From Theocolax elegans (lineage: Eukaryota; Arthropoda; Insecta; Hymenoptera; Cerocephalidae): a DNA stretch of 64,000 nt. A program made the translations under genes and the position numbers. This document shows, in pieces, positions 13,967-62,489 of the stretch. The notes under the pieces were generated by a model, which made no database searches, was not told the origin of the DNA, and was given only the letters and a program-made list of their open reading frames with translations. The stretch covers positions 41,091,313 to 41,155,312 of the forward strand of contig CM047426.1 in assembly GCA_026168455.1 (NCBI GenBank), read 5' to 3'. The first letter of the stretch is position 1. The number at the start of each line of letters is the position of its first letter.

Positions 13967-14000
<34 letters not shown>

Positions 14001-15733: not shown

Positions 15734-15769
<36 letters not shown>

Positions 15770-20917: not shown

Positions 20918-21475
20918 AATTACAATAGCGCCAACTTTTAAAATTAACTTATGTGGTGGTAAGCCATTAGGCGTTATTGAATTAAAAAAGTCTATTGGAA
21001 TTGTATTAGATATGTCCTCATTTTTATCAAAATTCGTTATATCAACACTAATATATTCCCTAGGTTCTCCGTTTAATCGATTTAATATTTCATTATTAAT
21101 CTTTAAGACATCTTTATTTGTTGGTGCTAATATTACTTTACTGTATAGCGAGTTGTCATTAGAATTTATTAAAGGGCCAAAAGTTTCTGCAATTAAATCT
21201 CCGCGAGATAAAAGATTAGACGGTAAATGAATTAAATTATTATTTTTTTCAAAATCGCTACCATCACTACGTTGTTCTCCACTTTAAGTAGCCAATCTTG
21301 GAACATATTATCATTATTATTAATTCTTTTGTTGCCTTGTAACGAAACATTATTAAACATGTTCCATAGTTTGCTTTTTTTAACACAAGATTCTATTATT
21401 TGAATTCTATTTCCAAAACGTACAACTGATAAAATTTGTCGAAAGTCACCAGATAATATTACAATTTTACCGCCA
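20918..21475 (-). pseudogene. Helitron helicase, middle part
   Basis: Minus-strand reading gives FGGKIVILSGDFRQILSVV (helicase motif III region), then RGDLIAETFGP, VILAPTNKDVL and GAIVI, in broken frames. It is continuous with the ATPase part at 21459 through a frameshift near 21475, and with the C-terminal part across the satellite. Confidence 0.8.
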
Positions 21476-39163: not shown

Positions 39164-39535
39164 CATATTATTACAAGGATTCCAATGATATTAAAAAAAG
39201 CATTGCTCACCGATCCAAAACTAAAAATATTTATTTTTAAAATTTGAATTTTCCAACTATTAGAAAAATTCGTGAATTTATTGCTTTCTTACACTTTAAG
39301 TTTTAAGATATATGAATTTATCGATCTTTACAAGCCAAAGAAATATTCTTAACATCTCAAGTAAGGCGGACTGTATTAATACCAGCCACTTAATAAACCT
39401 CACAGGATGAGTGTTTGAAAAAAGACTAAGACAAGCTAGGTCAACAAAAATATAAAATTTAGTTGTTTGTAGTATGAAATTAATAAAACCTTAATAAGAC
39501 GGAAAAAAAAAAAAAAAAAAAAAAAAAAGAAAAAA

Positions 39536-39604
39536 TTATATTTCGCCCTGAGTATGCCTGGTGGGCTCATCAGTAGAGTCCAGGCATCTCGTCTCTAGAT
39601 ATAA
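39536..39604 (-). ncRNA. Type III hammerhead ribozyme, array copy 1
   Basis: Complete motif on the minus strand: stem III TTATAT/ATATAA, cleavage after ATATC (39598), stem I TAGAG/CTCTA, core CTGATGA, stem II GCCC/GGGC, GAAA. Confidence 0.88.
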
Positions 39605-40097
39605 ATGACAGATATAAAAATTATTTGAAAACCAGCTGTATTCTGACGAGGAAGACATGGGGTATATATGCCCTACCGATAGCAAACTTTAATAAGTGCC
39701 ACATATTAACAGGTAGCCCCCTAACGCACTTACATAGAACTAATGTCTTAATCGTCAGACTTTTGTTACATAAGGCATATTCGTGATCCAATGCCATATA
39801 ATTTTAAAATTTGAATTTCCCAACTATTAGAAAAATTCGTGAATTTATTGCTTTCTTACACTTTAAGTTTTAAGATATATGAATTTATCGATCTTTACAA
39901 GCCAAAGAAATATTCTTAACATCTCAAGTAAGGCGGACTGTATTAATACCAGCCACTTAATAAACCTCACAGGTTGAGTGTTTGAAAAAAGACTAAGACA
40001 AGCTAGGTCAACAAAAATATAAAATTTAGTTGTTTGTAGTATGAAATTAATAAAACCTTAATAAGACGGAAAAAAAAAAAAAAAAAAAAAGAAAAAA

Positions 40098-40166
40098 TTA
40101 TATTTCGCCCTGAGTATGCCTGGTGGGCTCATCAGTAGAGTCCAGGCATCTCGTCTCTAGATATAA
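40098..40166 (-). ncRNA. Type III hammerhead ribozyme, array copy 2
   Basis: Same complete motif as copy 1, cleavage expected between 40160 and 40159 on the minus strand. Confidence 0.88.
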
Positions 40167-40710
40167 ATGACAGATATAAAAATTATTTGAAAACCAGCTG
40201 TATTCTGACGAGGAAGACATGGGGTATATATGCCCTACCGATAGCAAACTTTAATAAGTGCCACATATTAACAGGTAGCCCCCTAACGCACTTACATAGA
40301 ACTAATGTCTAGCTTGTCTTAGTCTTTTTTCAAACACTCATCCTGTGAGGTTTATTAAGTGGCTGGTATTAATACAGTCCGCCTTACTTGAGATGTTAAG
40401 AATATTTCTTTGGCTTGTAAAGATCGATAAATTCATATATCTTAAAACTTAAAGTGTAAGAAAGCAATAAATTCACGAATTTTTCTAATAGTTGGAAAAT
40501 TCAAATTTTAAAATTATATGGCATTGGATCACGAATATGCCTTATGTAACAAAAGTCTGACGATTAAGACATTAGTTCTATGTAAGTGCGTTAGGGGGCT
40601 ACCTGTTAATATGTGGCACTTATTAAAGTTTGCTATCGGTAGGGCATATATACCCCATGTCTTCCTCGTCAGAATACAGCTGGTTTTCAAATAATTTTTA
40701 TATCTGTCAT

Positions 40711-40779
40711 TTATATCTAGAGACGAGATGCCTGGACTCTACTGATGAGCCCACCAGGCATACTCAGGGCGAAATATAA
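40711..40779 (+). ncRNA. Type III hammerhead ribozyme, array copy 3
   Basis: First plus-strand copy after the inversion; cleavage expected after C40717. Stem III, stem I, stem II, core and complementary loops are all present. Confidence 0.9.
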
Positions 40780-40784
40780 TTTTT

Positions 40785-40815
<31 letters not shown>

Positions 40816-41286
40816 CCGTCTTATTAAGGTTTTATTAATTTCATACTACAAACAACTAAATTTTATATTTTTGTTGACCTAGCTTGTCTTAGTCTTTTTT
40901 CAAACACTCATCCTGTGAGGTTTATTAAGTGGCTGGTATTAATACAGTCCGCCTTACTTGAGATGTTAAGAATATTTCTTTGGCTTGTAAAGATCGATAA
41001 ATTCATATATCTTAAAACTTAAAGTGTAAGAAAGCAATAAATTCACGAATTTTTCTAATAGTTGGAAAATTCAAATTTTAAAATTATATGGCATTGGATC
41101 ACGAATATGCCTTATGTAACAAAAGTCTGACGATTAAGACATTAGTTCTATGTAAGTGCGTTAGGGGGCTACCTGTTAATATGTGGCACTTATTAAAGTT
41201 TGCTATCGGTAGGGCATATATACCCCATGTCTTCCTCGTCAGAATACAGCTGGTTTTCAAATAATTTTTATATCTGTCATTTATAT

Positions 41287-42423
41287 TGTAACGGTAAACG
41301 GCTCACGCGAGACGAAAATCGTACCGATCGCGTGAGTCTACCGTTGAAGACGCGTAAGGCGCATGCGCGAGCGCGTCGGAGAGCCGGTGTGCACGACACA
41401 CCGGCAGTATCGTTCGAACCTCGAACAACACGGGATCGGCAACACCGTTCGGTTCGTAGCTCGACCTAGAGTGAGACCAATCAAGGCCCCGCGATTCCGA
41501 ACTGTGGCGAAGGAGAGAGAGAGAGAGAGAGAGAGGGTCCGAGAGAGCGAAAGCGAGAAAAGGCGGACACCGCGAGTGCTAAGCTTCAACGTCGAAAAGA
41601 CAAGTAAGTCCTGGCCAGGCGTGCGCCGTTTCGAAATTACGACGCGATCCGCGAGCGGCATCGGGATACGCGCGGTACCCCGACGCACCATACCGCCCGG
41701 GCGAGAGTCCGGATACTCTCGCCGTGTCTCTCTCTATTGCGTAGACACGCATTCGGTAAGCCGGAGTGCTCCACACTCCGGCAATAATTTGCCCATACTA
41801 GGTCTTCGGCTCAACCAGGTGCTCGATACCTGGTGTAATCTCGTTCCCGCGAACATATCGAGACGCCGTGTCTCGGACCGTAGTTTGCGGCGGGCGCACA
41901 CACACACGCACACTGTATACATTTTATGTGCCCGCGTTTGTTTACATTTTCTTATTTAACTGTTATTGAGCCAAGGTTTAGCATTGCCTTGGCTCGCCCC
42001 GGCATAATTTATAAGCTTTTGTATCCCGTTAATTTTTGTTTATATAGAATAAATTACACTGACATTTTTAATCGCGAGTGTCGATTCATTAAACCCGCGA
42101 GTAATTCCTATCCCAAAGGCGAATACCGCCATGCCCCGCGGGTGTCGTGCACTGCACCTAGCACGACACACTTAACTGAGTAGCCGAGTACGAGCATCAA
42201 CGGAGGATAAGTGTGCACTAGATAAGTGCACACATTGTACACAGGGAAGACGTCGTCGCTCGGAGCTTGAGGCTAGCTCCGGCCGTCCCGAAAGGTAATT
42301 TTCACCGATTTGTCGGCTGTATGGTGAGACAGCTGACCTCGGTATTGCATTGATTTCCTGTACATCGAACAGATGTACTGGACGAACGTAACCCTCCTGA
42401 CGTACGAGAATAACCCTGTTACA
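41287..42423 (+). repeat. TE-A 5' LTR
   Basis: TGTAACGG...CTGTTACA, 1137 bp. Contains a (GA)n tract (41513-41535), a CpG-rich first half, and an AATAAA near 42049. Open frames of up to 198 codons run through it on both strands, but they are identical in both LTRs only because the LTRs are, and they show no protein family. A promoter is expected here; its start site was not identified. Confidence 0.95.
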
Positions 42424-42424
42424 A

Positions 42425-42442
42425 CTGGCGCCCAACACGTGA
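42425..42442 (+). promoter_or_regulatory. TE-A primer-binding site
   Basis: CTGGCGCCCAACACGTGAG follows the LTR. The first ten bases TGGCGCCCAA are those used for tRNA-Lys-type priming; the match beyond is partial, so the exact primer tRNA is uncertain. Confidence 0.7.
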
Positions 42443-43912
42443 GTTTCCTCGGGATAGGAAAAATTTTCCATTTAGTTGAATTTTGTACTGCGGACGTTGT
42501 TGTACATATAAATCGCAACGAGTGGTTGCGAGCACGTTGCGAGTTCGTCGCGACGAACATATATAAACAACAACACGAGCCGAGTACAAACGAACATAAT
42601 TCTCGGAATTGACTCGAAATAATACTTATTATTTTCGAAATAAGACTTATTATTTTCGAGTTAAATTAAATTTAAAATTCGAATTAAATAAATTTCTTAA
42701 AGTAATAATTCATAACAGACATAAATTTTATAAACAAATTAAGTTCCCAAATTTTCCCAAAAATTAAAAATTTTCCAAATTTTCCGAAATTTTCAACCTT
42801 TTCAAATTTTTCGAAATTTGCAATTTTTTTCAAAATTTTCAAAATTTTTCAAAATTTTTCAAAATTTTCAAATTTTCTGAAATTTTCAAATTTTTTTTAG
42901 AAATTTTTTAATTTTTCGAGGTTTTCAAATTTTTCGAGATTTTCAAAATTTTTTTAAATTTTTCGAAATTTAAAAATTTTTCATAATTTTTTAGAATTCT
43001 AGAAAATTTTCAAATTTTTCACATTTGCAAAATTTTTGTAGGTTTTTGGAATTTTTCCAATTTTTCCAATTTTTTCGGAATTCGTAAATTTTTCCGAATC
43101 TTTCGAATTATTTTAGAATCCTCGAAAAGATATTATTTTTTTTTTGCGGTAATCTGGAAAATTTTTCGAAGCGAATAGTACGATTTTATAAATCGAAAAA
43201 TAAAGTGTGTGCGTCGGAAAAATACGAGCGCTAGAACGATACCCTTAGAATTGTAATTTCTCGTTATATATTTCTGCGTAGCATAATAGGCGAGAGAGAG
43301 ACAATAGATTTGGTGTAAAGTGTACGCTAAGCTTTAACCAATTAATTAACTAGATAATTAATTGGCACTAATTTAGTACTATAAAAATAAAAAGACGTAT
43401 AATTGAAGTCTTCATTTTATTTATAATTCGTCTTTAATTTCGTTTATCAATTAGAATTATCTTGATACACGTTCAATAAATTTTAATTGACGTGCTGAAA
43501 GATTGTGTGGGCAAAAATAAAACACTTATTGTTTTATTCGGGTTATTTTAACTGTTTTAAATTAAAGAGGTGTTTGTAGTACCCACAATTAATATTTTAT
43601 ATTTAATTATTAAATCCTTACTCTGGTAATATCAAGCCGATATTGTTACAACTTGGTACAACCAGAATCGAAGAAACCCACACAACCTTGCATTAGCGTA
43701 CACGGTAGGACAAAGCCAGAGCAACCCAATAGTTAGGCCGTATAGTCCAATCATATATATTTTTTGTATTTTGCGATTATAATTGTGTGCCTTAGGGAAA
43801 ACGCGAGCGAACGACACCACGATAGCCGCGCAATTGGACTGCTCTGGTAAAGCGAAATAAATTATTTTTTTGTATTTATTGTAAATTATTTATTTAAATC
43901 GTTATTATAAAT
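42443..43912 (+). promoter_or_regulatory. TE-A leader with phased A/T tracts
   Basis: 1.47 kb before gag without a long frame. Between 42740 and 43060 it is built almost only of AAATTTTTC/AAAATTTTC steps, spaced about 10-11 bases. Phased A-tracts of this kind are known to bend DNA. The stretch just before gag (43600-43900) is ordinary sequence. Confidence 0.6.
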
Positions 43913-45733
43913 ATGGCGTGTTCGACACAACAGAAGATCGAAGACTGGTGTTTGTTTTATAGAGACAAAGATATTTGTCAATATCTTAATGACCTGTCAC
44001 TTAAAGATACAGGCAATAAATTTGACAAATTAAGCCGTCTGACAAAATGGCTCCTAGGAGATTACGAGCCAAGGGATTTCGTTGAAGAACCTGAGCAGGA
44101 TGAAATTACCGTCTGGTACCATCGGGAGGAACTCAGGCAAAATTTCATCACAAAATATAGCTCGGCAGAACACCCGTGGGAGAACTCGACAATTGACGAC
44201 AACACAAGCCATCCATTATTAACTCTTAACAACGATGAAAAAGTTAAAGAAAATATGGAAACAAGTCGTAGAAGAGTTCAACACCTCAAAGACAATGAAA
44301 CCACGGCATTATTGCAAGAAACCACGGAATCAACACCAACGAATGATAAAGCTGCCGACAGTATTTTAAACGATGACCAAAATACAAGCAGAATAAGACT
44401 CACTGCAACAGACGGAGGAACATTCGAAATCCCACTAGAATTCGCAAATTTTATGCAAGGAATGTCAGACACAGTTAAGCAATTAACTGAAAAAGTAAAT
44501 GCGCTAACGGCTGCGCAAGCTCAGCCTATTTTAACTAGCACCAGACTGGACCAGCCACGACACGAAGTCCGGAGCCAACGACAGCAAGTAGGATTCCAGG
44601 ACACAATGACGTACCATTACCTGGACAATACAACCGAATTACCACAACCTGACCCCCCAGCACCACTCGCAAGGAGAGTCGGCCAAGCCTGGGAGGGGGG
44701 GAACTTCCAAGGTCAGGAAAGACTTGGAAATACGAGTGGTACCAGGACCGAGAACAGCACCTGGCAGAGAAGTGCAGGACAGTCGCTGAGAGACGTCGGT
44801 CAAATTGTCCGGAAATGGGGACTACAGTTCTCAGCAGATGGCGACCAGAGCATAGACTCATTTCTCGAACGAGTCGAGGAATGTCGGATTCTGGCCAATC
44901 TTTCAGAATCCGAATTGCTAAGCTCACTGCCAGAGTTATTCAAAGGCGTTGCAGCACTCTGGTTCAAAAACGAAAGAGATACGTGGTCGACGTGGTCCGA
45001 ATTCCAAAAAGAAGCTCGTCACTGGTTCGGAACAAATAGGCGGTTTCAGAAGAGGTTGATTGCCGAAATAAATTCCCGCTATCAAGGACCCGGCGAGAAA
45101 ACACGGGACTATATTACGTGTTTAGTGCACATGATAAGAAGACTCGATCCAATCCCAAGGATCGAGCAGCAGTTAGATACACTGCACGGCAACCTGCGCC
45201 CCGAGATACAGAATTTGGTGCGCAGGACGGATTGCGATTCAATCCATACTCTTCTTGATCTTGCTGTCGAAGCCGAACTTACGCTGGAGGGACAGAAAGC
45301 GTATAGGCACCCTCCGCCACCCGAGACTGCCCTAATCCCCGAGTCGGCTTATAAACCGAAGGAGGAAAGAAGGGCCAAGACGAAGATTGCAGCGGTGCAG
45401 TCGACAGCACCAAATCTGCAGACTAAGAAGAATCCGCCAGAGGACTTGGCGAAAACCCTGGCCAAAGTTCTGGAAGAGAAGATGAGAGAATTCGTCCTTT
45501 CAATGACCACATCCCGGAGCGGAATTGGTAAACCGAGGGAACCAAACCGGACGAAGAATGCGAAGGGTTCCGCCGAAAGGACGTACGGCGGATCGAAGGT
45601 GGAAAAAGACAATCAGATCGTGAGCGCAAGACCGCAAGCCACACAACCACTGAAATGCTTTGGTTGCGGACGGCTAGGGTATAAGCGCGCAGATTGTCCG
45701 GACTGTTCGGGAAACGCAAACAGGAGCGGTTAA
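43913..45733 (+). CDS. gag: TE-A gag
   Basis: 606-residue structural protein that would package element RNA. The N-terminal third is acidic and unrecognised. The region about 300-480 has capsid-like helices (ESELLSSLPELFKGVAALWFKNE, RYQGPGEKTRDYI). Near the C-terminus, CFGCGRLGYKRADCPDC gives C-x2-C-x9-C-x2-C, a variant zinc knuckle without the usual His. The ATG at 43913 is preceded by a leader with stops in frame. It overlaps pol by 40 bases; the frameshift signal at 45709 lies eight codons before its stop. Confidence 0.9.
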   Translation: MACSTQQKIEDWCLFYRDKDICQYLNDLSLKDTGNKFDKLSRLTKWLLGDYEPRDFVEEPEQDEITVWYHREELRQNFITKYSSAEHPWENSTIDDNTSHPLLTLNNDEKVKENMETSRRRVQHLKDNETTALLQETTESTPTNDKAADSILNDDQNTSRIRLTATDGGTFEIPLEFANFMQGMSDTVKQLTEKVNALTAAQAQPILTSTRLDQPRHEVRSQRQQVGFQDTMTYHYLDNTTELPQPDPPAPLARRVGQAWEGGNFQGQERLGNTSGTRTENSTWQRSAGQSLRDVGQIVRKWGLQFSADGDQSIDSFLERVEECRILANLSESELLSSLPELFKGVAALWFKNERDTWSTWSEFQKEARHWFGTNRRFQKRLIAEINSRYQGPGEKTRDYITCLVHMIRRLDPIPRIEQQLDTLHGNLRPEIQNLVRRTDCDSIHTLLDLAVEAELTLEGQKAYRHPPPPETALIPESAYKPKEERRAKTKIAAVQSTAPNLQTKKNPPEDLAKTLAKVLEEKMREFVLSMTTSRSGIGKPREPNRTKNAKGSAERTYGGSKVEKDNQIVSARPQATQPLKCFGCGRLGYKRADCPDCSGNANRSG

Positions 45734-48700
45734 AAAGGGTCGTTCCCGTTCCTGCCCCGCGTAAGACCCGAACAGATATCCCAACTACAGCCGAGCGCTG
45801 TGAGGAGAACTCGGCAGCAAAAGAGTCGTCGGGAGTGCCGACGTCATCGGCTGAGTCCGAGAAAGATAGCGGCTGTCTCAGCCCGAACTCTGTGAGATCG
45901 ACAGAAAAGTCAGATCAACACCAGATAGCGGCCGCTACCCGAGATCATGATGATAGGGCTGGAGGAGAAGACCCTCCGAGTGAAAAAGAAACTCGTTGGT
46001 GGTTCCAAGTGGGCATTGCCGGCTACCGCGTACGCGCCTTGTTCGACACAGGAGCATCGCGCACGGTAATGGGCTCGATTGGCCTACAATTGGCCACGGC
46101 CTGTGGCTGTCCACTCATCCCGAGCAACGGAAGGAAAGCGAAAGTGCCAGGAAACCAGACGGTGTCGATCGCTGGTTACGTAGACCTGCCTTTCGAGGTT
46201 GCCGGGATAAAACGAGATATTCGCGTAGCCGTGCTTCCGGACGATCAAATCGACTGTTACGTCGGAGCGGACTTCATCCGTGGTTTTGGCGCAGTTTTGG
46301 ATCCAAACGAGAATAAACTTTGGATCAAAGCGGCCAACAAGTCCGTAGATCTGGAAGTAGCGAGCATATCGCGAATCGATGCATTCGAGATAGCATCGAT
46401 AGGACTTGCAGACTTATTGCCAGAGGAGCAAGAAAGACTGCATACACTGGCTGACCGATACCTGGGTACAACGGGGAGGCCGTTGGGATGTACATCTCTG
46501 ATTGAGCACGCGATCGACGTGGGTGCGACGCGGCCGATCAAGCAGAAATATTATCCCGTCTCTAAGAGAATAGAGGAAGAGATGCACGCCCAGGTTAAAG
46601 AGATGCTCGACGCAGGGGTGATCGAGCCATCAACCAGTGGGTGGTCGAGCCCCGTAGTAATGGTCCGTAAACCTAACGGGAAGTATCGGTTCTGTATTGA
46701 CTATCGGAAGGTCAATGCAGTGTCGAAAACCGATGCTTACCCGCTGCCTAACATGGACGGCATACTACGGAAGCTCAAGAACGCGAGGTACATCAGTACG
46801 CTAGACTTGAGTAGCGCGTACCACCAGATACCGCTAAGACCGGAGTCAGCGGCTATTACCGCGTTCACAGTACCTGGGTTAGGCTTATTCCAATTTAAAA
46901 GGATGCCTTATGGCTTATCCCAGGCGGGAGCCACGTTCCAAAGGTTAGTGGACAAAATCATAGGGCCTGAGCTCGAGCCCTATGCATTTTCGTACCTCGA
47001 TGATATAATCATCGCCACAGAGACCTTCGAGGAACACGAAAAGTGGCTAAAGTATGTCCTGAAGAGAATCAACGAGGCTAGTCTCACAGTGAATCGGGAT
47101 AAAAGTGTATTTGGACGTACTGAGGTGAAATATCTCGGAGTGCTGGTAAATCGCGATGGAATCAGACCAGACCCCGAGAAAATCGAGCCGATCATCAATT
47201 ATCCGGCGCCCAAGAATCTGAAACAGCTGAGAAGATTCCTTGGTATGGGTTCGTGGTACCGGAAATTCTTACGAGACTTTGCTACCTTGGCCGAGCCGCT
47301 GACAAGGCTTACCAAGAAGGACCGTAAGTTTGAATGGCTCGAGGAGCAGCAACAGGCATTCGATCAGATTAAGGCGCTGATCGCAACTGCTCCCGTCCTA
47401 GCGAGGCCAGAGTTCGATGTGCAGTTTGTCATACAAACAGACGCGAGCGACACTGGCATTGGCGCAGTACTTCTCCAGGTGATTAATGGGGAAGAGAGAG
47501 TACTGGAATTCGCCAGTAGGACGTTAAACCAGGCCGAACGCAATTATAGCGTTACGGAACGAGAATGCCTGGCGGTTATATGGGCGATTGGTAAATATAG
47601 ACCTTACATAGAAGGCTATCATTTCCGCGTTATAACCGACCATAGTAGCTTACGTTGGTTGCGTAGCTTACACAGCCCAACGGGTAGGTTAGCGCGATGG
47701 GCGTTAGAGTTGCAGGGACACAGCTTTGATGTGGAGCATCGAAAAGGCGCCCTGAACTATGTACCCGACGCGCTATCGCGGATGAGCGAGGAGGAGGCCC
47801 TCGCCATCAACGCAATATCTTGGGTAGAGGAGTCCCAAGACGAGTGGTTTCAGAATTGGCTGAAACGAGTTAAATCCAGTCCAAGGGATTTTCCTCGTTG
47901 GAAGTGTGTCGGAGGACGACTATACTTCCACAAGCCGAACGAGTTGATCGACGAAACACTCGGAGACGAGGACGCGTGGAAGTTAGTGATTCCAAAGGAA
48001 CACCGAAAAGCGGTCCTCGAGGAAAGCCACGACTCTCCTACGTCTGGCCATGCTGGACGTGAGAAGACGTTTGCCAGTCTGGCTAAGTATTACTACTGGC
48101 CAGGTTATTACGCCGACGTGAAGGACTACGTGCGTCGCTGTCTCGTCTGTCAACAATGCAAGGTGGATCACCGACCACCTGCAGGACTGATGGGAAAACG
48201 CACGGTCGAGCGTCCCTGGCAAGTCGTGGCAGGGGATATCACCGGGCCCTTTGTAAGGAGCAAGGGCGGATACGAATACATCCTAGTATTCTTGGATTTA
48301 TTCACCCGGTGGGCGGAGTGTATACCAATTCGCAAAGCCAACGCGAAAACCATTCTCAAGGAATTCAAAGAGAGAATAGTTTTAAGATTTGGTACTCCTG
48401 AGGTATTTCTATCGGATAACGGTACCGAATTCAAGAATAAGGCCGTCGACGAATACCTACAAGAGGTTGGGATACACCATACCACCACTCCGCCATATTT
48501 CCCCCAAGCGAATCCGGTTGAACGCGTCAACCGAACGCTGAAAACCAGGATTGTGGCCTTCATCGAAGAAAACCACAATACCTGGGACGAGAAGTTGCCG
48601 GAACTTGTATTCTCGCTGAACAACACCGTACACGAGTCGACGGGTACAACTCCGGCAATGCTGAATTACGGACGAGAGCCTATGCCTCCTGGTACCATCA

Positions 48701-49422
48701 AGAGGAACCAAGAACAGGCTGGCATAGAAGAGGAGCAGCACCATAAAATAAAATTGTGGCAAGAGCGACTTAGAAAGCTCAGGGAAGTACATGAGTCTGC
48801 AGCCGCACGCTCAGACCAACAACCTGAGCGGCAAGCAAGCGATTATAACGCTAAAAGGAGGGACACACCTTTCACCGTAGGAGATATGGTGTGGAAGAAG
48901 AACAGGGTCCTGTCCTCAGCAGCTCAGGGTATTTCGGCTAAGCTGGCTCCGAAGGCAACCGGTCCGTATATCATAATAGGCCAACCAGGATCCAATACTT
49001 ATACGTTGTTGGATAAAGACGGTAAAGTGACCGACCTGGCACACGCCGAACACCTTAGACACTGCATCTCACCGGATCTCGACGCAGACAAGGAAGAAGA
49101 ACATCCGCCGAGGGACATCGTGGGAGAAGGGGCGACGCGCGACCCGCCCCAGGCGAGCGTACAGTCACCAAATTGCGTGCGGACTCCTGCGCGAGTCATA
49201 GCGGGTGACACCAGCGTGCGAGAACAGGCTCCTGCGAGAGTCAAAACGCCGGATGTACGAAAACGCGGCCGTCCGCGAAAATCCGCGAAAGCCGTCGCGA
49301 GACCCCACGGGAAAAACATAGTGAAACGCGGTGTAGCAAATAATGACGTCGAATCCGTACTCGAGAGATCAAGGTCATCGGTAGTCCGTAGAAAGACGCG
49401 CGCGCAAGCGAAGCGGCAGTGA
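45694..49422 (+). CDS. pol: TE-A pol: protease, RT, RNase H, integrase with AT-hook
   Basis: 1242 residues from the first possible codon; real synthesis would start by frameshift at 45715. Protease: LFDTGASRTVMG near residue 115. Reverse transcriptase about 270-450: FCIDYRKVNAV, TLDLSSAYHQIPL, SYLDDIIIAT. RNase H about 575-700: QTDASDTGIGAVL, ERECLAVIWA, VITDHSSLRWL. Integrase: HHCC zinc domain (HDSPTSGHAG...CLVCQQC), then catalytic D in VAGDITGP, D in LSDNGTEF, E in NPVERVNRT. The C-terminal tail after about residue 1110 ends in DVRKRGRPRKSAK, an AT-hook near residue 1190. No stops or frameshifts. Confidence 0.95.
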   Translation: MSGLFGKRKQERLKRVVPVPAPRKTRTDIPTTAERCEENSAAKESSGVPTSSAESEKDSGCLSPNSVRSTEKSDQHQIAAATRDHDDRAGGEDPPSEKETRWWFQVGIAGYRVRALFDTGASRTVMGSIGLQLATACGCPLIPSNGRKAKVPGNQTVSIAGYVDLPFEVAGIKRDIRVAVLPDDQIDCYVGADFIRGFGAVLDPNENKLWIKAANKSVDLEVASISRIDAFEIASIGLADLLPEEQERLHTLADRYLGTTGRPLGCTSLIEHAIDVGATRPIKQKYYPVSKRIEEEMHAQVKEMLDAGVIEPSTSGWSSPVVMVRKPNGKYRFCIDYRKVNAVSKTDAYPLPNMDGILRKLKNARYISTLDLSSAYHQIPLRPESAAITAFTVPGLGLFQFKRMPYGLSQAGATFQRLVDKIIGPELEPYAFSYLDDIIIATETFEEHEKWLKYVLKRINEASLTVNRDKSVFGRTEVKYLGVLVNRDGIRPDPEKIEPIINYPAPKNLKQLRRFLGMGSWYRKFLRDFATLAEPLTRLTKKDRKFEWLEEQQQAFDQIKALIATAPVLARPEFDVQFVIQTDASDTGIGAVLLQVINGEERVLEFASRTLNQAERNYSVTERECLAVIWAIGKYRPYIEGYHFRVITDHSSLRWLRSLHSPTGRLARWALELQGHSFDVEHRKGALNYVPDALSRMSEEEALAINAISWVEESQDEWFQNWLKRVKSSPRDFPRWKCVGGRLYFHKPNELIDETLGDEDAWKLVIPKEHRKAVLEESHDSPTSGHAGREKTFASLAKYYYWPGYYADVKDYVRRCLVCQQCKVDHRPPAGLMGKRTVERPWQVVAGDITGPFVRSKGGYEYILVFLDLFTRWAECIPIRKANAKTILKEFKERIVLRFGTPEVFLSDNGTEFKNKAVDEYLQEVGIHHTTTPPYFPQANPVERVNRTLKTRIVAFIEENHNTWDEKLPELVFSLNNTVHESTGTTPAMLNYGREPMPPGTIKRNQEQAGIEEEQHHKIKLWQERLRKLREVHESAAARSDQQPERQASDYNAKRRDTPFTVGDMVWKKNRVLSSAAQGISAKLAPKATGPYIIIGQPGSNTYTLLDKDGKVTDLAHAEHLRHCISPDLDADKEEEHPPRDIVGEGATRDPPQASVQSPNCVRTPARVIAGDTSVREQAPARVKTPDVRKRGRPRKSAKAVARPHGKNIVKRGVANNDVESVLERSRSSVVRRKTRAQAKRQ
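45709..45770 (+). promoter_or_regulatory. TE-A gag-pol -1 ribosomal frameshift signal
   Basis: Slippery heptamer G GGA AAC (45709-45715) lies in the gag reading frame, as -1 frameshifting requires. After a 5-base spacer comes a 9-bp stem, CAGGAGCGG (45721-45729) with CCGTTCCTG (45746-45754), one pair being G-U. The 16-base loop contains GGGTC (45737-45741), which can pair with GACCC (45765-45769) to make an H-type pseudoknot. The gag stop TAA lies inside the loop. The pol frame is the -1 frame of gag. Confidence 0.8.
49243..49290 (+). other. AT-hook in TE-A integrase tail
   Basis: KRGRPRK is encoded from about 49259 to 49279. The G-R-P core flanked by basic residues is the AT-hook signature, which binds the minor groove of AT-rich DNA. 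The same motif occurs in the TE-B-like fragment at 37035-37055. Confidence 0.8.
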
Positions 49423-49781
49423 AAAATGTATTAATCATATGTATGCTGACGTAGACGGATGTCAACACTGAACCCAATTCAACGAGTTCGCCGTCGAAAA
49501 GATAAAAGAGCACTAACGCTATTTTGTGTGTGGTTGGCAGGGGACACATAACTTATGTACATGCCCCAGTCGGTCGAACCACCACTAGCTAAGTCAGAAA
49601 GAGCCGATAGCTCCTGACAAATCTGAGTCAGGACGAGATCACCAGGGTAAAAATCCCCTGGCTATCGAAATCGTGAAATAAAGCGATTTCAGTCAGTATC
49701 AGACCCCTAACCACACCCTGACGCGTCTAGGAAAGGTCAGAGCATGGTATATGGAAATATACCTTGCGTCTGGAAGGGGGG
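49423..49781 (+). other. TE-A 3' UTR and polypurine tract
   Basis: 360 bp without a frame, ending in GGAAGGGGGG (49772-49781) directly before the LTR start TGTAACGG. Confidence 0.8.
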
Positions 49782-50918
49782 TGTAACGGTAAACGGCTCA
49801 CGCGAGACGAAAATCGTACCGATCGCGTGAGTCTACCGTTGAAGACGCGTAAGGCGCATGCGCGAGCGCGTCGGAGAGCCGGTGTGCACGACACACCGGC
49901 AGTATCGTTCGAACCTCGAACAACACGGGATCGGCAACACCGTTCGGTTCGTAGCTCGACCTAGAGTGAGACCAATCAAGGCCCCGCGATTCCGAACTGT
50001 GGCGAAGGAGAGAGAGAGAGAGAGAGAGAGGGTCCGAGAGAGCGAAAGCGAGAAAAGGCGGACACCGCGAGTGCTAAGCTTCAACGTCGAAAAGACAAGT
50101 AAGTCCTGGCCAGGCGTGCGCCGTTTCGAAATTACGACGCGATCCGCGAGCGGCATCGGGATACGCGCGGTACCCCGACGCACCATACCGCCCGGGCGAG
50201 AGTCCGGATACTCTCGCCGTGTCTCTCTCTATTGCGTAGACACGCATTCGGTAAGCCGGAGTGCTCCACACTCCGGCAATAATTTGCCCATACTAGGTCT
50301 TCGGCTCAACCAGGTGCTCGATACCTGGTGTAATCTCGTTCCCGCGAACATATCGAGACGCCGTGTCTCGGACCGTAGTTTGCGGCGGGCGCACACACAC
50401 ACGCACACTGTATACATTTTATGTGCCCGCGTTTGTTTACATTTTCTTATTTAACTGTTATTGAGCCAAGGTTTAGCATTGCCTTGGCTCGCCCCGGCAT
50501 AATTTATAAGCTTTTGTATCCCGTTAATTTTTGTTTATATAGAATAAATTACACTGACATTTTTAATCGCGAGTGTCGATTCATTAAACCCGCGAGTAAT
50601 TCCTATCCCAAAGGCGAATACCGCCATGCCCCGCGGGTGTCGTGCACTGCACCTAGCACGACACACTTAACTGAGTAGCCGAGTACGAGCATCAACGGAG
50701 GATAAGTGTGCACTAGATAAGTGCACACATTGTACACAGGGAAGACGTCGTCGCTCGGAGCTTGAGGCTAGCTCCGGCCGTCCCGAAAGGTAATTTTCAC
50801 CGATTTGTCGGCTGTATGGTGAGACAGCTGACCTCGGTATTGCATTGATTTCCTGTACATCGAACAGATGTACTGGACGAACGTAACCCTCCTGACGTAC
50901 GAGAATAACCCTGTTACA
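49782..50918 (+). repeat. TE-A 3' LTR
   Basis: 1137 bp, same length as the 5' LTR and apparently identical (all frames through it give the same translations as in the 5' LTR), which indicates very recent insertion. Confidence 0.95.
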
Positions 50919-50985
50919 ATATCTAGAGACGAGATGCCTGGACTCTACTGATGAGCCCACCAGGCATACTCAGGGCGAAATATAA
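50919..50985 (+). ncRNA. Type III hammerhead ribozyme, array copy 4 (interrupted by TE-A)
   Basis: TE-A is inserted in the 5' strand of stem III. The target duplication ATAT restores four of six stem III pairs (ATAT/ATAT) next to the LTR end. Everything from the cleavage site (after C50923) onward is intact, so activity is plausible. Confidence 0.8.
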
Positions 50986-51482
50986 TTTTTTCTTTTTTTT
51001 TTTTTTTTTTTTTTTTTTCCGTCTTATTAAGGTTTTATTAATTTCATACTACAAACAACTAAATTTTATATTTTTGTTGACCTAGCTTGTCTTAGTCTTT
51101 TTTCAAACACTCATCCTGTGAGGTTTATTAAGTGGCTGGTATTAATACAGTCCGCCTTACTTGAGATGTTAAGAATATTCTTTGGCTTGTAAAGATCGAT
51201 AAATTCATATATCTTAAAACTTAAAGTGTAAGAAAGCAATAAATTCACGAATTTTTCTAATAGTTGGAAAATTCAAATTTTAAAATTATATGGCATTGGA
51301 TCACGAATATGCCTTATGTAACAAAAGTCTGACGATTAAGACATTAGTTCTATGTAAGTGCGTTAGGGGGCTACCTGTTAATATGTGGCACTTATTAAAG
51401 TTTGCTATCGGTAGGGCATATATACCCCATGTCTTCCTCGTCAGAATACAGCTGGTTTTCAAATAATTTTTATATCTGTCAT

Positions 51483-51551
51483 TTATATCTAGAGACGAGA
51501 TGCCTGGACTCTACTGATGAGCCCACCAGGCATACTCAGGGCGAAATATAA
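51483..51551 (+). ncRNA. Type III hammerhead ribozyme, array copy 5 (reference copy)
   Basis: Stem III: TTATAT (51483-51488) with ATATAA (51546-51551). Cleavage after C51489. Stem I: TAGAG (51490-51494) with CTCTA (51509-51513), loop 14 nt. Core CTGATGA (51514-51520), stem II GCCC/GGGC with a 14-nt loop, then GAAA. Loop I ATGCCTGG and loop II CCAGGCAT are perfect complements, which would allow the tertiary loop contact fast hammerheads need. Confidence 0.92.
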
Positions 51552-52047
51552 TTTTTTCTTTTTTTTTTTTTTTTTTTTTTTTCCGTCTTATTAAGGTTTT
51601 TTTAATTTCATACTACAAACAACTAAATTTTATATTTTTGTTGACCTAGCTTGTCTTAGTCTTTTTTCAAACACTCATCCTGTGAGGTTTATTAAGTGGC
51701 TGGTATTAATACAGTCCGCCTTACTTGAGATGTTAAGAATATTTCTTTGGCTTGTAAAGATCGATAAATTCATATATCTTAAAACTTAAAGTGTAAGAAA
51801 GCAATAAATTCACGAATTTTTCTAATAGTTGGAAAATTCAAATTTTAAAATTATATGGCATTGGATCACGAATATGCCTTATGTAACAAAAGTCTGACGA
51901 TTAAGACATTAGTTCTATGTAAGTGCGTTAGGGGGCTACCTGTTAATATGTGGCACTTATTAAAGTTTGCTATCGGTAGGGCATATATACCCCATGTCTT
52001 CCTCGTCAGAATACAGCTGGTTTTCAAATAATTTTTATATCTGTCAT

Positions 52048-52116
52048 TTATATCTAGAGACGAGATGCCTGGACTCTACTGATGAGCCCACCAGGCATAC
52101 TCAGGGCGAAATATAA
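52048..52116 (+). ncRNA. Type III hammerhead ribozyme, array copy 6
   Basis: Identical motif; cleavage expected after C52054. Confidence 0.9.
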
Positions 52117-52615
52117 TTTTTTCTTTTTTTTTTTTTTTTTTTTTTTTTTTCCGTCTTATTAAGGTTTTATTAATTTCATACTACAAACAACTAAATTTTA
52201 TATTTTTGTTGACCTAGCTTGTCTTAGTCTTTTTTCAAACACTCATCCTGTGAGGTTTATTAAGTGGCTGGTATTAATACAGTCCGCCTTACTTGAGATG
52301 TTAAGAATATTTCTTTGGCTTGTAAAGATCGATAAATTCATATATCTTAAAACTTAAAGTGTAAGAAAGCAATAAATTCACGAATTTTTCTAATAGTTGG
52401 AAAATTCAAATTTTAAAATTATATGGCATTGGATCACGAATATGCCTTATGTAACAAAAGTCTGACGATTAAGACATTAGTTCTATGTAAGTGCGTTAGG
52501 GGGCTACCTGTTAATATGTGGCACTTATTAAAGTTTGCTATCGGTAGGGCATATATACCCCATGTCTTCCTCGTCAGAATACAGCTGGTTTTCAAATAAT
52601 TTTTATATCTGTCAT

Positions 52616-52684
52616 TTATATCTAGAGACGAGATGCCTGGACTCTACTGATGAGCCCACCAGGCATACTCAGGGCGAAATATAA
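52616..52684 (+). ncRNA. Type III hammerhead ribozyme, array copy 7
   Basis: Identical motif; cleavage expected after C52622. Confidence 0.9.
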
Positions 52685-53181
52685 TTTTTTCTTTTTTTTT
52701 TTTTTTTTTTTTTTTTCCGTCTTATTAAGGTTTTATTAATTTCATACTACAAACAACTAAATTTTATATTTTTGTTGACCTAGCTTGTCTTAGTCTTTTT
52801 TCAAACACTCATCCTGTGAGGTTTATTAAGTGGCTGGTATTAATACAGTCCGCCTTACTTGAGATGTTAAGAATATTTCTTTGGCTTGTAAAGATCGATA
52901 AATTCATATATCTTAAAACTTAAAGTGTAAGAAAGCAATAAATTCACGAATTTTTCTAATAGTTGGAAAATTCAAATTTTAAAATTATATGGCATTGGAT
53001 CACGAATATGCCTTATGTAACAAAAGTCTGACGATTAAGACATTAGTTCTATGTAAGTGCGTTAGGGGGCTACCTGTTAATATGTGGCACTTATTAAAGT
53101 TTGCTATCGGTAGGGCATATATACCCCATGTCTTCCTCGTCAGAATACAGCTGGTTTTCAAATAATTTTTATATCTGTCAT

Positions 53182-53250
53182 TTATATCTAGAGACGAGAT
53201 GCCTGGACTCTACTGATGAGCCCACCAGGCATACTCAGGGCGAAATATAA
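53182..53250 (+). ncRNA. Type III hammerhead ribozyme, array copy 8
   Basis: Identical motif; cleavage expected after C53188. The unit just after it (53461) has a single substitution (tgtaatgatcg instead of tgtaaagatcg). Confidence 0.9.
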
Positions 53251-53255
53251 TTTTT

Positions 53256-53286
<31 letters not shown>

Positions 53287-53751
53287 CCGTCTTATTAAGG
53301 TTTTATTAATTTCATACTACAAACAACTAAATTTTATATTTTTGTTGACCTAGCTTGTCTTAGTCTTTTTTCAAACACTCATCCTGTGAGGTTTATTAAG
53401 TGGCTGGTATTAATACAGTCCGCCTTACTTGAGATGTTAAGAATATTTCTTTGGCTTGTAATGATCGATAAATTCATATATCTTAAAACTTAAAGTGTAA
53501 GAAAGCAATAAATTCACGAATTTTTCTAATAGTTGGAAAATTCAAATTTTAAAATTATATGGCATTGGATCACGAATATGCCTTATGTAACAAAAGTCTG
53601 ACGATTAAGACATTAGTTCTATGTAAGTGCGTTAGGGGGCTACCTGTTAATATGTGGCACTTATTAAAGTTTGCTATCGGTAGGGCATATATACCCCATG
53701 TCTTCCTCGTCAGAATACAGCTGGTTTTCAAATAATTTTTATATCTGTCAT

Positions 53752-53820
53752 TTATATCTAGAGACGAGATGCCTGGACTCTACTGATGAGCCCACCAGGC
53801 ATACTCAGGGCGAAATATAA
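53752..53820 (+). ncRNA. Type III hammerhead ribozyme, array copy 9
   Basis: Identical motif; cleavage expected after C53758. The unit behind it is truncated at 54054, next to the 14-bp direct repeat. Confidence 0.9.
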
Positions 53821-54068
53821 TTTTTTCTTTTTTTTTTTTTTTTTTTTTTTTCCGTCTTATTAAGGTTTTATTAATTTCATACTACAAACAACTAAATTTT
53901 ATATTTTTGTTGACCTAGCTTGTCTTAGTCTTTTTTCAAACACTCATCCTGTGAGGTTTATTAAGTGGCTGGTATTAATACAGTCCGCCTTACTTGAGAT
54001 GTTAAGAATATTTCTTTGGCTTGTAAAGATCGATAAATTCATATATCTTAAAACCTAAAAATATTTAT

Positions 54069-55035: not shown

Positions 55036-56088
55036 TTATTTTGATAACTGAATGAAAATACTTTTGATTATCTTCGAATTATTTGTTACGCGAGGCTTTC
55101 CTTGTACACTTTCACGCAATAATATTGCTAAACCATCATAGCCTCCAGTCTCGTAAGCTTTTTCCAATATTGTTATATTTATACCAGCTTTTGAAAGTTT
55201 AGATTTCATATTCGTTGATATTTGAAGATGTTTTAAAGAGTTTTTACAAGTTTTAATTTTTTCATTCCTATCTTTTGCATTGACTATAAAATCAAAATTC
55301 TGAGCATGCTTGCATATATTAATCTTATCATGGCAGATTTTTACCAATAATTTTTTTAGGATAATAACATTATTTAATGCATTATGAGCATCTTGAATAT
55401 CACTTTTATCTAAATAATCTTCTGCTAAAGCTCCTTGACTAAATTTTTTTCTTTGCGTAAGCAAATTTTTGAACACATATAAACTGTCACAAAAATCGGT
55501 GACGAATAACTTTAACTCTTTTATAAGATCCACAGTTAGAGCGAGTTGGATGATTCTTGGGGCATCAAACCTAAAAGGAATCATATAAAAATAAATAAAA
55601 GCAATTCAATATGGAATTTAAATTTATATAATATAAATACCTATAACAATTATGTGCCAATAAAATTACAGGACGATTTTGGCGCTTTAAAAAGTAAAAA
55701 AAACTTAATGATCCATCTCGAGGGGACAATGTCAGTACTTGTTTCTCTTTATAATACATTCTTTTATTACAAATCTTTAAATTAGTAACTTCAGATTCTT
55801 TCTGGCTAATACTTCTTTTAGGCATCAAATAAACATTAAACTCATCATTTTCACAAACAGCAGCAATCTACAAATAAAAAGTATTATAAATATACAAAAC
55901 GTACAGTAGAATAAAAATTTGGTATTTATTACTTGAACTATTTCGTCGGACATTTGAAAACCAGTAGTTTCAATATCAAAAATAACTATTTTACAATTCT
56001 CATAGCTAACATTTTCTGTAATACATAAAAATATCTTAATTAATGACAATAGGCGCAAATAAATTATAGTATAAAAAATTAATCGTAC
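55036..56088 (-). pseudogene. DEDDh 3'-5' exonuclease part of MULE gene, with introns
   Basis: Spliced reading on the minus strand gives VIFDIETTGF (Exo I, D and E), then after two introns LLAHNCYR-FDAP (Exo II) and DAHNALNN (Exo III). Introns with GT-AG ends lie at 56016-56088, 55868-55932 and 55571-55640 (73, 65 and 70 bp), and the frame is kept across them. In Exo III the family has H-x4-D; here the Asp is Asn (AAT codon), which should impair metal binding. The tail GKPRVTNNSKIIKSIF matches the end of this protein family as I recall it. It follows the transposase part in the same transcript direction. Confidence 0.75.
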
Positions 56089-57265
56089 CAGATATAAGTA
56101 CTTCATCAATAAGGTCTGCAGTAGTAAAGTAACCAGAGCCAGATTGATACGATACACCTTCTCGGTTAGATGCCAATAAATTTTTATACGATCTTTTTTT
56201 TTAATTCTAAACGTCTTCTTTTAATAGGTATTCAACTTCTTGTTTAAGCTTCTCTAATGAATCGATCTTCTTTGTTTTCGAGACCGTTTAGAATGTTCGC
56301 CTAGTGATAAATTCAATGATGAATTAAGTTTTACAATATATTTGTAGCCGAGATTTTTTTGACATACTGCTGTTGCTACTCGATAGCAGAGAGATTCTGA
56401 GCCACCGTAAAATAATGCTTTTGGGTGTTTAGAGCAAACTGTGTTGTTAAATGATTCATTAGGTTGACTAGATCCACATGGTGCTATTGACATCGAACTG
56501 TTTACAAACGGTTCTAAAATTTTTTTAATTGCTGTTCCAATTTCTCATCTGATAAGCACTGACCGTTTTTAAAGTACTTATGTAGGTGAGTGCCATTGTC
56601 CGATTTTAAGCAAAATGATCTGCATTTCTCATGATTACCGAAAGCATGAGGCACAATGTTTTCCAATGCATGTTTTACTTGCTGTACGTCACCTTTATTT
56701 TGTTTTATTGCAAGAGAGAAAACTTTAGAAAAATATTCTCTAAGATAAGCACTTAACTTAATATCGTACAGTTTACTATTAAAAGTTTTTTGTATGGTTA
56801 ACATCAGACCATTTTTCAATTGCATAATGTGACAATCTCTCAAAGCTGCTATTGCACATGAGTCATCATCACCAATGATTACTTTTACCCTACATTGCAT
56901 ATTTACAAAGTGTTCATTTTTTAATAATAATTGCACTGCCATATCGGCCTCCATTGATTTAGATGTTCCACTGTAATTTTTTCTGCAATCATGCTTTACT
57001 TTTTTATTGATACTACATTGCTTGCAATAAATGTTACGACAAGCATACGCAATAACCTTATTAGAAAAATGTCCAATTAACGATGCATGCCCTAAGAAGC
57101 AATTCAATTAAATAAATTCACTATATTTAACTTATAAAAAATTAAAAGCAATAGAAAGTATCACTAAAACTATTGCGTTGACGTCCTCTTTTGGGCCAAG
57201 CTGCATCGAATGAACCTATCAAATCTGCTACGTCGTTGTTTGGGTCCAGATAATCCTTGTTCATA
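56089..57265 (-). pseudogene. Mutator-like transposase domain part of MULE gene
   Basis: Exons on the minus strand: 57265-57165 (DVADLIGSFDAAWPKRG), intron 57092-57164, then 57091-56089. The second exon reads GHFSNKVIAYACRN, CRKNYSGTSKSMEADMAVQLL, VIIGDDDSCAIAAL and NIVPHAFGNHEKC, the signature order of the eukaryotic Mutator-like transposase domain often seen with an exonuclease. Several frame breaks lie in or beside A-runs (near 56520, 56280, 56228 and 56198), and a further exon must lie upstream of 57266. Either a decayed element or one with homopolymer sequencing errors. Confidence 0.7.
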
Positions 57266-57949: not shown

Positions 57950-58214
57950 ATTATATTAATATGCTCACATATATATTCATATATATACATATATACATAT
58001 ATGCATACAAACACACATTCATACACACATACATATACACACATGCATACATATATACATATAAACACACATAGCTACACACATACATACAAACATATAC
58101 ATACATATGCGTTGAAGATAATTTTGATAATTTTTTTCAGTAGATTTTTTTAAAAATGGTTAATATTGGGTGGGGAGTGTAATTTAAAGAGGGGGGGGGG
58201 CAAATTTGACCAGG
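57950..58214. repeat. (ACATAT)-type microsatellite and flank
   Basis: A long stretch of acacata/catatatac motifs (57960-58110) followed by a G9 run at about 58191-58200. Confidence 0.8.
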
Positions 58215-61200: not shown

Positions 61201-61925
61201 CAAGTATAAAAAACAAAAAAAAAATTCGACCTTTTGAACAAAGTAGAAGTTGATTAAAAACGATTACTAAAGTATTCGAAGGATTATTCGGCGAATCCTT
61301 CAAAATGAATACAGTATTCGAATGGAAGTATTCGTCGAATACTTCATTTCGAATATTGATTAGAAACAAAGAATTCGTCGAATACTTGGGTAAACGATTT
61401 TAACAAACTTCTACATAGTTCAAAAGCTTGAACTTTTTTTGTTTATGATTTTTTATATTTATATTTAGATGATCACTTCCTGGAGACGATGTCTAGGTGA
61501 CCAGGGTAACCTCCAGGTCTTCCGGACATCATCTACTAGAAAATCTACATGCCAAAATGCATGAATTTGATAAATCAATTGTAACTTCCTGGAGACGATG
61601 TCTAGGTGGCCTAGGTGACTTCCAGGTCATCCGGACATCATCTACTGGAAAGTCTACATACCAAAATGCATGAATCTGATAAAAAAAATTGTAACTTCCT
61701 AGAGACGATGTCTAGCTGTCCAGGGTGACCTCAAAGTCATCCGAATATCATTTACTTAGAAGTCTACATGCTAAAATGCATGAATCTGATAAAAAAATTG
61801 TAACTTCCTAGAGACGATGTCTAGGTGTCCAGGGCGATCTCAAGGTCATCCGAATATCATTTACTTAGAAGTCTACATGATAAAATGCATGAATTTGAAA
61901 AAAAATGATCACTTCCTGGAGATGA
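58215..61925. mobile_element. Foldback-like element: 3.7 kb palindrome of tandem subrepeats
   Basis: Left arm 58215-60050 and right arm 60090-61925 are reverse complements over most of their length. The outer parts are tandem arrays of 109-bp units (catcgtct at 58233, 58342, 58451, 58560, 58669, 58778; mirrored at 61484, 61593, 61703, 61812). Next comes a gaatactt/cgaat-rich block and a 200-bp block (ttgttcaaaaggttgaattt...). The inner parts are repeats of ttgctgctttgtttaaatata type. Long inverted repeats made of tandem repeats are the hallmark of Foldback/Galileo elements. No transposase inside. Confidence 0.8.
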
Positions 61926-62489
61926 TTTTTTTTTTTGATAAAGCGGAGTTTCAGTGGTCCAACTGGTGGTGAAACACCATAACTTCAACCCTTTAATCTT
62001 TTTAATTAACCCAAAATTATAAAAAAGAATTTAAAACTATGGAAATTTGTCATATTTTGGCAATACTTTAAAAAATGTCAAGAAAGTGATGAAAAATAAC
62101 TGTTTGATTTTAACACTGATCATTTCGGCTTCGAATTAATTAGAGGACCAAAATTATGGCTAACTTACTTTTTTTATAGTATAACAACATACTAAATTTG
62201 TAATAAAATCGGTTCATCCAACCCCCTCCGCACCCCCCAAATGAAAAATATTTTATGTGTGTACATTTTAAATATATAAAATATGTGGACATAATTCACT
62301 TTCTTACTGACCACACGCACACACAGCTTCTTTGTAATAACCTATAATGATCATTTTACATAGACAGAATATATATACTTATTTTTTACTATTTGTCATC
62401 TTTATTTTCTTTCTGTATTTTATTTCTATCATTACTAGCGCCAAAATTTAACAGTATACTTATCTTTCCTTAACTTACACCGTTACAGA
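61926..62489. other. Interval without recognised gene
   Basis: AT-rich sequence with no frame, RNA or transposon end that I recognise. Confidence 0.5.

Follow-up and report, generated by a model that had tools for sequence, protein, structure and literature searches.

A 64,000-nucleotide stretch of the genome of the hymenopteran Theocolax elegans (assembly GCA_026168455.1, contig CM047426.1, positions 41,091,313 to 41,155,312 of the forward strand; hereafter the window) contains an array of about nine non-coding units of some 566 bp, each carrying a motif predicted to fold as a type III hammerhead ribozyme. Judged from its sequence, this array is probably a retrozyme that was inserted as one head-to-head block by the reverse transcriptase (RT)-endonuclease of a Penelope-like element. 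The repeat units, two recurrent 3' ends (A and B), head-to-head inversions, target duplications, and a terminus in common with a Penelope-like element of the same assembly are all found at the sequence level.

Organization of the array

Six full units of the array measure 562 to 570 bp, in line with the unit of about 566 bp given by an earlier reading of the letters alone (the sequence-only reading), and outside a T tract the units vary at five positions, each private to one unit. That reading had described a tandem array; the approximately nine units are present, but they do not form one run, as some 1.9 units on the minus strand face those on the plus strand head-to-head, and the plus-strand arm is interrupted by a 9.6-kb Gypsy-type element. 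Without this element, the array is flanked on both sides by CTAAAAATATTTAT, a 14-bp target duplication, and the same sequence at both borders suggests that the entire head-to-head block was inserted in a single event. The array and its borders comprise the following features:

39221..39234, no strand assigned, left target site duplication, 14 bp, CTAAAAATATTTAT (flank comparison)
39235..40308, minus strand, inverted arm of about 1.9 units, outer end at site B (unit coordinate 363)
40309..41286, plus strand, direct arm, first part, as far as the long terminal repeat (LTR) element
41287..50918, plus strand, Gypsy-type LTR retrotransposon, not part of the retrozyme
50919..54054, plus strand, direct arm, second part, outer end at site A (unit coordinate 295-296)
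54026..54053, plus strand, end A, AAGATCGATAAATTCATATATCTTAAAA, matching the 3' terminus of the same-assembly Penelope-like element
54055..54068, no strand assigned, right copy of the target site duplication (flank comparison)

The Gypsy-type element at 41287-50918, with identical LTRs of about 1137 bp, a 4-bp target duplication (ATAT), and open gag and pol frames, is a very young, later arrival that splits the array. It was inserted at the hammerhead's own ATAT. Among the 120 matches listed for its pol, 13 carry an organism name, namely, 12 Hymenoptera and one crayfish, a result that bears indirectly on the "insect-like genome" of the sequence-only reading.

The unit has a G+C content of about 31%. 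Its longest open frames are 64 to 69 codons, and an open reading frame (ORF) for an RT with a GIY-YIG endonuclease is absent from it; because the unit shows no coding signal, the enzyme of another element would be needed. A conserved ORF of 58 amino acids was rejected as coding: its variable columns are spread flatly over the three codon positions (23/17/22), its changes comprise 17 synonymous and 53 nonsynonymous ones (115 and 416 are possible), and a gap falls in 20 of the 31 distinct copies, with no early stop in the 11 gapless ones. An origin as a tRNA-derived element was likewise rejected, because ARAGORN detected no tRNA in the window. Downstream of each hammerhead is a T tract (unit coordinates ~64 to 94; for instance, 50986-51018); on the opposite strand it reads as an A tract about 20 nt after AATAAA, resembling the end of a polyadenylated transcript. 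Unit coordinates ~421 to 540 are non-coding and conserved about as well as the ribozyme, perhaps as a structured or protein-binding segment, in a comparison of ten units that is biased because the units were picked by part of the motif.

Hammerhead motifs

All nine copies of the motif share the layout UUAUAUC/UAGAG-(14-nt loop 1)-CUCUA-CUGAUGA-GCCC-(14-nt loop 2)-GGGC-GAAAUAUAA, where the slash marks the predicted cleavage position. Stems I, II, and III are of 5, 4, and 6 bp, stem III is open, and the triplet is AUC, so that the CUGANGA core, GAAA, NUH triplet, and three stems of a type III hammerhead are all in place. Loop 1 (AUGCCUGG) is complementary to loop 2 (CCAGGCAU) over 8 nt. A scan of the window located CTGATGA cores at 39567 and 40129 on the minus strand and at 40742, 50948, 51514, 52079, 52647, 53213, and 53783 on the plus strand, and the nine cores are identical.

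The sites were also searched with a descriptor (NUH, CUGANGA, GAA, and stems of at least 4/4/5 bp, both strands) and with the type III model of Rfam at a permissive threshold. The descriptor returned 8 sites in the window, the ninth core (50948) being too short in stem III, whereas 4632 dinucleotide-shuffled windows gave 2 sites in all, neither with a loop complementarity of at least 7 nt. The sequence-only reading had counted nine complete hammerheads between 39536 and 53820, with CTGATGA, GAAA, three stems, and an ATC triplet in type III order. These parts were all recovered in the window scan, and the descriptor sites, with stems of 5/4/6 bp and stem III open, have the order it named; nine cores lie in that span, but eight motifs are complete, the one starting at 50919 having lost part of the 5' strand of stem III to the LTR element, with 4 of 6 bp left. 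The predicted hammerheads, found by the permissive Rfam search and the descriptor unless otherwise indicated, are listed below:

39536..39605, minus strand, predicted hammerhead (type III) 1
40098..40167, minus strand, predicted hammerhead (type III) 2
40710..40779, plus strand, predicted hammerhead (type III) 3, predicted cleavage at 40717/40718
50919..50985, plus strand, predicted hammerhead 4, stem III reduced to 4 bp by the LTR insertion (permissive Rfam search)
51482..51551, plus strand, predicted hammerhead 5
52047..52116, plus strand, predicted hammerhead 6
52615..52684, plus strand, predicted hammerhead 7
53181..53250, plus strand, predicted hammerhead 8
53751..53820, plus strand, predicted hammerhead 9

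The nine hammerheads are thus confirmed as sequence motifs, and self-cleavage is predicted for them. Exact hammerhead patterns had no match in the viral_contigs and genome_contigs collections. A looser type III pattern matches 11 contigs of viral_contigs (L001 to L011).

Covariation was assessed on 33 aligned, distinct rows; from an initial 40, 7 had been dropped as truncated, indel-shifted, or not a motif, and the loci behind the alignment had been chosen by part of the motif. Pairing cells make up 95.1% of this alignment, versus 27.5 to 44.6% when the register is slid, and none of 500 shuffles reached its covariation score. One pair of stem III is G-C in 26 rows, A-U in 6, and G-U in 1. Outside stem III, the three helices (that between the loops included) retain 96 to 98% of their pairs.

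Several results weigh against a working hammerhead. The covariance-model check named by the sequence-only reading failed: at the gathering score of the hammerhead family tested (RF00008), Rfam gave no match in the window, and the permissive search with the type III model scored 22.8 bits at eight sites and 19.9 bits at one, compared with a cut-off of 48.5 bits, which excludes these sites from listing under Rfam's curated rule. Two-sided changes occur at only one pair, a number equalled in 427 of 500 shuffles, and the outermost pair of stem III is broken in 21 of the 33 rows. The minimum-energy fold computed with ViennaRNA is another hairpin, in which loops 1 and 2 are paired and only stem III is kept; it has a predicted energy of -19.5 kcal/mol, compared with -7.3 kcal/mol for the nested hammerhead plus -12.8 kcal/mol for the loop duplex. 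This hairpin could block cleavage into monomers, and since it has the lowest energy, the motif may be a switch; the predicted 8-bp helix between loops 1 and 2 can either lock the active fold or switch the hammerhead off.

The same fold could mean that a conserved hairpin, serving as a protein-binding site, resembles a hammerhead by chance, given that the two loops pair there as an ordinary hairpin, the Rfam scores lie under the cut-off, and the conserved length includes this hairpin. We regard this as unlikely: core, triplet, and three stems stand together in register at a frequency of 2 sites per 4632 shuffled windows, and the exchange of G-C for A-U lies in stem III, outside the paired loops, although stem III is kept in the competing fold as well.

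The family in the assembly

The assembly containing the window comprises 658 Mb in 1277 contigs. An exact 33-mer (core plus stem II) occurs 857 times in it (484 and 373 by strand), whereas the reversed control does not occur. Six loci were taken from a 68-base query and 28 from the first listed places of the 33-mer, and all but one of these 34 fetched loci are on contig C1; L070 was dropped because its flanks and duplication are the same as those of L069, leaving 33 loci that together with the window make up the 34 considered below. They were picked by exact hammerhead matches, at least one of them for opposed matches, so that the sample is not random, a point to be set against the frequencies that follow.

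Identity to the unit of the window ranges from 78 to 97% by locus, and the unit length over ten loci is 535 to 570 bp. Single-orientation arrays reach 14 near-identical units (L021). Core and stems are kept where the units are otherwise 83 to 92% like those of the window, in loci chosen by part of the motif. A dense cluster of hammerheads at C1:55.28-55.39 Mb, with many spacings of about 1.6 kb, is unlike the dispersed arrays and is perhaps a higher-order satellite grown from the retrozyme.

Such a cluster, and the tandem, AT-rich, non-coding nature of the units, would also suit an ordinary satellite spread by unequal exchange and rearrangement, with an incidental hammerhead. This origin is highly improbable for the family, as the loci are dispersed and have target duplications and fixed ends, and the variants of the window outside the T tract are private to single units, whereas exchange would share them.

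Insertion ends and target duplications

Target duplications of at least 12 bp were found at 13 of 25 loci, compared with 2 of 600 mismatched flank pairs in a permutation of the flanks (L061, which runs off its stretch, was left out), and they are 12 to 17 bp in size; three of eight further loci have duplications of 13, 15, and 14 bp. At 23 of the 34 loci, the units are inverted head-to-head. Of the 57 outward 3' ends of the sense strand, site A (unit coordinate ~295) accounts for 26 and site B (308 to 335 or 355 to 370), 36 to 70 nt beyond site A, for 25; the remaining 6 lie elsewhere. The pairing of the two sites is nearly constant: where both ends of a head-to-head locus fall at these sites (18 loci), one is at A and the other at B in 17. 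In the last eight loci, fetched after the two sites had been named, 14 of 15 such ends are at A or B, one of them beside a masked stretch (L083). The alignment suggests that the two versions of site B are a single site: L058, the sole aligned unit of its subfamily, is about 28 nt shorter in the tail. The arms are thus head-to-head, the two 3' ends are adjacent, and the tail is on one arm, as in insertions of the Penelope type.

On the other side of the balance, 12 of the 25 loci have no duplication of at least 12 bp, and the six stray ends fall in L061 (at the stretch edge), L063 (in a T tract), L064, L066 (twice), and L080. L082, a composite, is the exception to the A-with-B rule and has site B twice, and the numeric windows of both sites were set after all of the loci had been seen. 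The T tract in which L063 ends adjoins an apparent LTR start.

Long interspersed nuclear elements (LINEs) also give target duplications of such size, 5' truncations, and inversions, and a LINE such as L1 or CR1 might have moved the repeat by target-primed reverse transcription with twin priming. Judged from the insertions themselves, we consider this very unlikely: no poly-A tract is seen at the outer ends inspected, the terminus matches a Penelope-like element (see below), and inversions at 23 of 34 loci and the combination of A and B in 17 of 18 are traits of Penelope-like elements (PMC3846280, PMC11167929; these and the other papers cited are used from excerpts).

A terminus shared with a Penelope-like element

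In the assembly, 98 of the 150 scored among 1713 candidates are GIY-YIG matches. Seven of these matches lie in open frames of more than 800 codons, and several are arranged as opposed pairs. From one such pair, on C6, both outer ends were examined, along with the ends of four additional copies. The C6 arms are head-to-head, with 3' regions identical over 499 nt, and are flanked by a 13-bp duplication, AAGTACCAATAAT; one arm stops at ...AAGATCGAAAAATATATCAA, while the other is about 31 nt longer and includes an ATG. Four of the six ends have the tail and two do not. This architecture recalls the insertions described for Penelope-like elements, in which the arms are head-to-head and one of them may carry an additional tail of about 31 bp (PMC3846280). 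According to PMC11167929, both strands are cut and extended by a purified Penelope-like protein, whose reverse transcription begins at two neighboring positions within the RNA; the segment between these positions becomes the tail, a feature called unique to these elements.

Retrozyme end A (AAGATCGATAAATTCATATATCTTAAAA) aligns to the terminus of the Penelope-like element with gaps only. The 20-nt terminus bounded by the duplication scores 24 with end A. The best of the 19,624 background windows scores 22, and 24 or more is attained in 2 of 2000 shuffles; with two further A residues, which may belong to the target, the 22-nt terminus scores 26, which no background window among the 19,624 and none of the 2000 shuffles attains. 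Within the unit, only windows holding end A reach these scores (19 and 13 of 565, respectively).

Some points tell against this link. The label "Penelope-like" rests on the endonuclease match and the shape of the insertion with its ends. The shared terminus is strong only in the subfamily of the window, two other retrozyme subfamilies scoring 16 and 14 with the 22-nt terminus; they may depend on other Penelope families, whose expected termini would resemble ...AATAAATTCATTTATCATATAAC. Homology between the retrozyme tail and the Penelope tail was rejected, since 1878 of 2000 shuffles were as good. A comparison of the rest of the unit with the Penelope 3' region found no homology at 1e-3.

Read by eye, the Penelope-like element has a hammerhead-like motif of type I layout about 120 nt before its end. 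In L084 and L085, the hammerhead-like motif of this element lies near sense positions 365 to 425; its stem II contains a single bulged G, and its stem III is very short. An Rfam search of the Penelope-like element did not list it.

Proposed mechanism

The ends, inversions, and terminus point to a Penelope-like element as the source of the enzyme. In the model that we propose, a transcript of the tandem units would cut itself at AUC/U, and a host ligase would circularize the resulting monomers; in other animal retrozymes, such monomers are known to end up as circles (PMC7229834). The Penelope protein would bind the RNA near unit coordinates 256 to 367 and cut both strands of an AT-rich target 12 to 17 bp apart; reverse transcription would start at the internal sites A (~295) and B (~331 to 367), one for each target strand, and each of the two cDNAs would be extended through several rounds of the template until they met head-to-head. 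In the window, the inserted block would later have been split by the Gypsy element. Of these steps, we infer cleavage, circles, rolling-circle copying, and mobilization from the features described above.

The inserts span the predicted cleavage site in 34 of 34 loci, which argues that the templates were not linear monomers released by ribozyme cleavage at that site. Between the two remaining templates, we lean slightly toward a circle rather than an uncut multimeric transcript: a circle read repeatedly from A and B would yield both head-to-head and single-orientation arrays without a long transcript of uncut ribozymes. In its most specific form, the ribozyme-bearing RNA circle would be a direct parasite of the Penelope RT, gripped at a borrowed 3' terminus and copied by rolling circle, back to back, from two fixed internal starts and from both cut strands of the target; we advance this form tentatively and put its chances somewhat below even.

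A Penelope-like element may instead move the repeat from an uncut tandem transcript, the hammerhead being slow or kept off by the competing hairpin and no circles being formed, a course that we rate as a substantial possibility, though somewhat short of an even chance. For the Anolis enzyme, uncut RNA is the main substrate and hammerhead mutants are inserted normally (PMC11167929), which argues against circles being required. The stability of the competing hairpin is close to that of the pseudoknotted hammerhead, and start sites inside the unit would work on any multimer. Such a template is harder to reconcile with the 14-unit array of L021, which would call for a long transcript with up to 14 intact, uncut ribozymes, and with core and stems retained in units that are otherwise 83 to 92% like those of the window, in these motif-selected loci.

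Comparison with known retrozymes and hammerheads

In the animal retrozymes described in PMC7229834 and PMC7761336, the hammerhead is of type I and the unit spans about 150 to 450 bp, so that the contrast drawn by the sequence-only reading with type I, shorter-unit elements agrees with these sources; their circular RNAs are also given as 150 to more than 1000 nt (PMC7229834). Its suggestion of a retrozyme-like family likewise holds, with non-coding units, one hammerhead each, low G+C, and target duplications. In these traits, in the tandem arrangement, in duplications longer than 4 bp, and in the lack of an LTR of its own, the family resembles the animal non-LTR retrozymes, which are described as having no LTR, primer-binding site (PBS), or polypurine tract (PPT), and for whose movement Penelope-like elements are considered strong candidates (PMC7229834). 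It differs from them in its type III hammerhead, its unit of 535 to 570 bp, its head-to-head arrangement, and its ends tied to a Penelope-like element. With the plant LTR retrozymes it shares the type III hammerhead, and their unit of about 600 to 800 nt is near in size; unlike these elements, which have LTRs, PBS, PPT, 4-bp duplications, and a G+C content above 55% (PMC7229834), it has duplications of 12 to 17 bp, a G+C content of about 31%, and no LTR of its own, those within the array belonging to the Gypsy element.

Penelope-like elements have in common with the family the head-to-head arms, one-arm tail, target duplication, two 3' ends corresponding to internal starts, and 3' terminus (PMC3846280, PMC11167929). 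Unlike them, the unit has no RT-endonuclease ORF, and its motif is of type III, whereas that of the Penelope-like element here is of type I.

Pseudoknotted type III hammerheads are known from hepatitis delta virus (HDV)-like RNAs and from fly and termite genomes, the termite motifs being isolated, and a structure search in hymenopterans is reported to have found none (PMC7936874). The HDV-like motif has an internal loop in helix I, an extra hairpin of about 20 nt, a 6-bp stem II, and a GCCR/YGGC pairing (PMC7936874). The present motif is similar in its 5-bp stem I and in the GCC of loop 1 and GGC of loop 2, which stand in Watson-Crick register; within AUGCCUGG/CCAGGCAU, GCCU pairs with AGGC at the place of the HDV-like GCCR/YGGC, with a different fourth pair. 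It is distinguished by its 14-nt loop 1 with no extra helix I hairpin, its 4-bp stem II, and its 8-nt loop complementarity. Another hammerhead-bearing tandem repeat of an insect is the pDo500 satellite of Dolichopoda, with units of about 500 bp; its motif is short (49 nt) and may act as a dimer, and the excerpts of PMC2837043 make no mention of type III, target duplications, or Penelope ends.

Type III hammerhead elements are said to occur in insects in PMC7761336, which cites earlier work and data in preparation. In the open-licence library searched, outside which lie most subscription papers and all preprints, we found no report of a type III animal retrozyme or of retrozyme insertion ends tied to a Penelope element. 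The type III hammerhead, the unit size, and the sequence-level Penelope link are new in comparison with the described animal retrozymes, and the family breaks the described split of type I in animals and type III in plants. Its insertion ends, through the terminus, the one-sided tail, and the size of the duplications, provide evidence of this kind, in one genome, for a link between retrozymes and Penelope-like elements. If the proposal of an RNA-circle parasite is true, it would settle how animal retrozymes move, in a family with a plant-type (type III) hammerhead. The family offers a clean test system, in that its RNA is short and non-coding, a candidate for the partner enzyme exists, and start sites have been predicted.

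Other features of the window

A tandem duplication of 1.77 kb, 97.6% identical, occupies 12830-16373. Arrays of a 109-bp repeat at 58212-58794 and 61475-61926 lie in opposite orientation around a 66-bp satellite (59311-61108), and a repeat of 97 to 99 bp at 19122 and 20519 resembles the 109-bp repeat. Apparent fragments of mobile elements are found at 21459-22400, 55036-55584, and 56514-57107; the types represented there are a PIF1-type helicase (Helitron-like), a frame with a PML_C domain, and a Mutator-like transposase.

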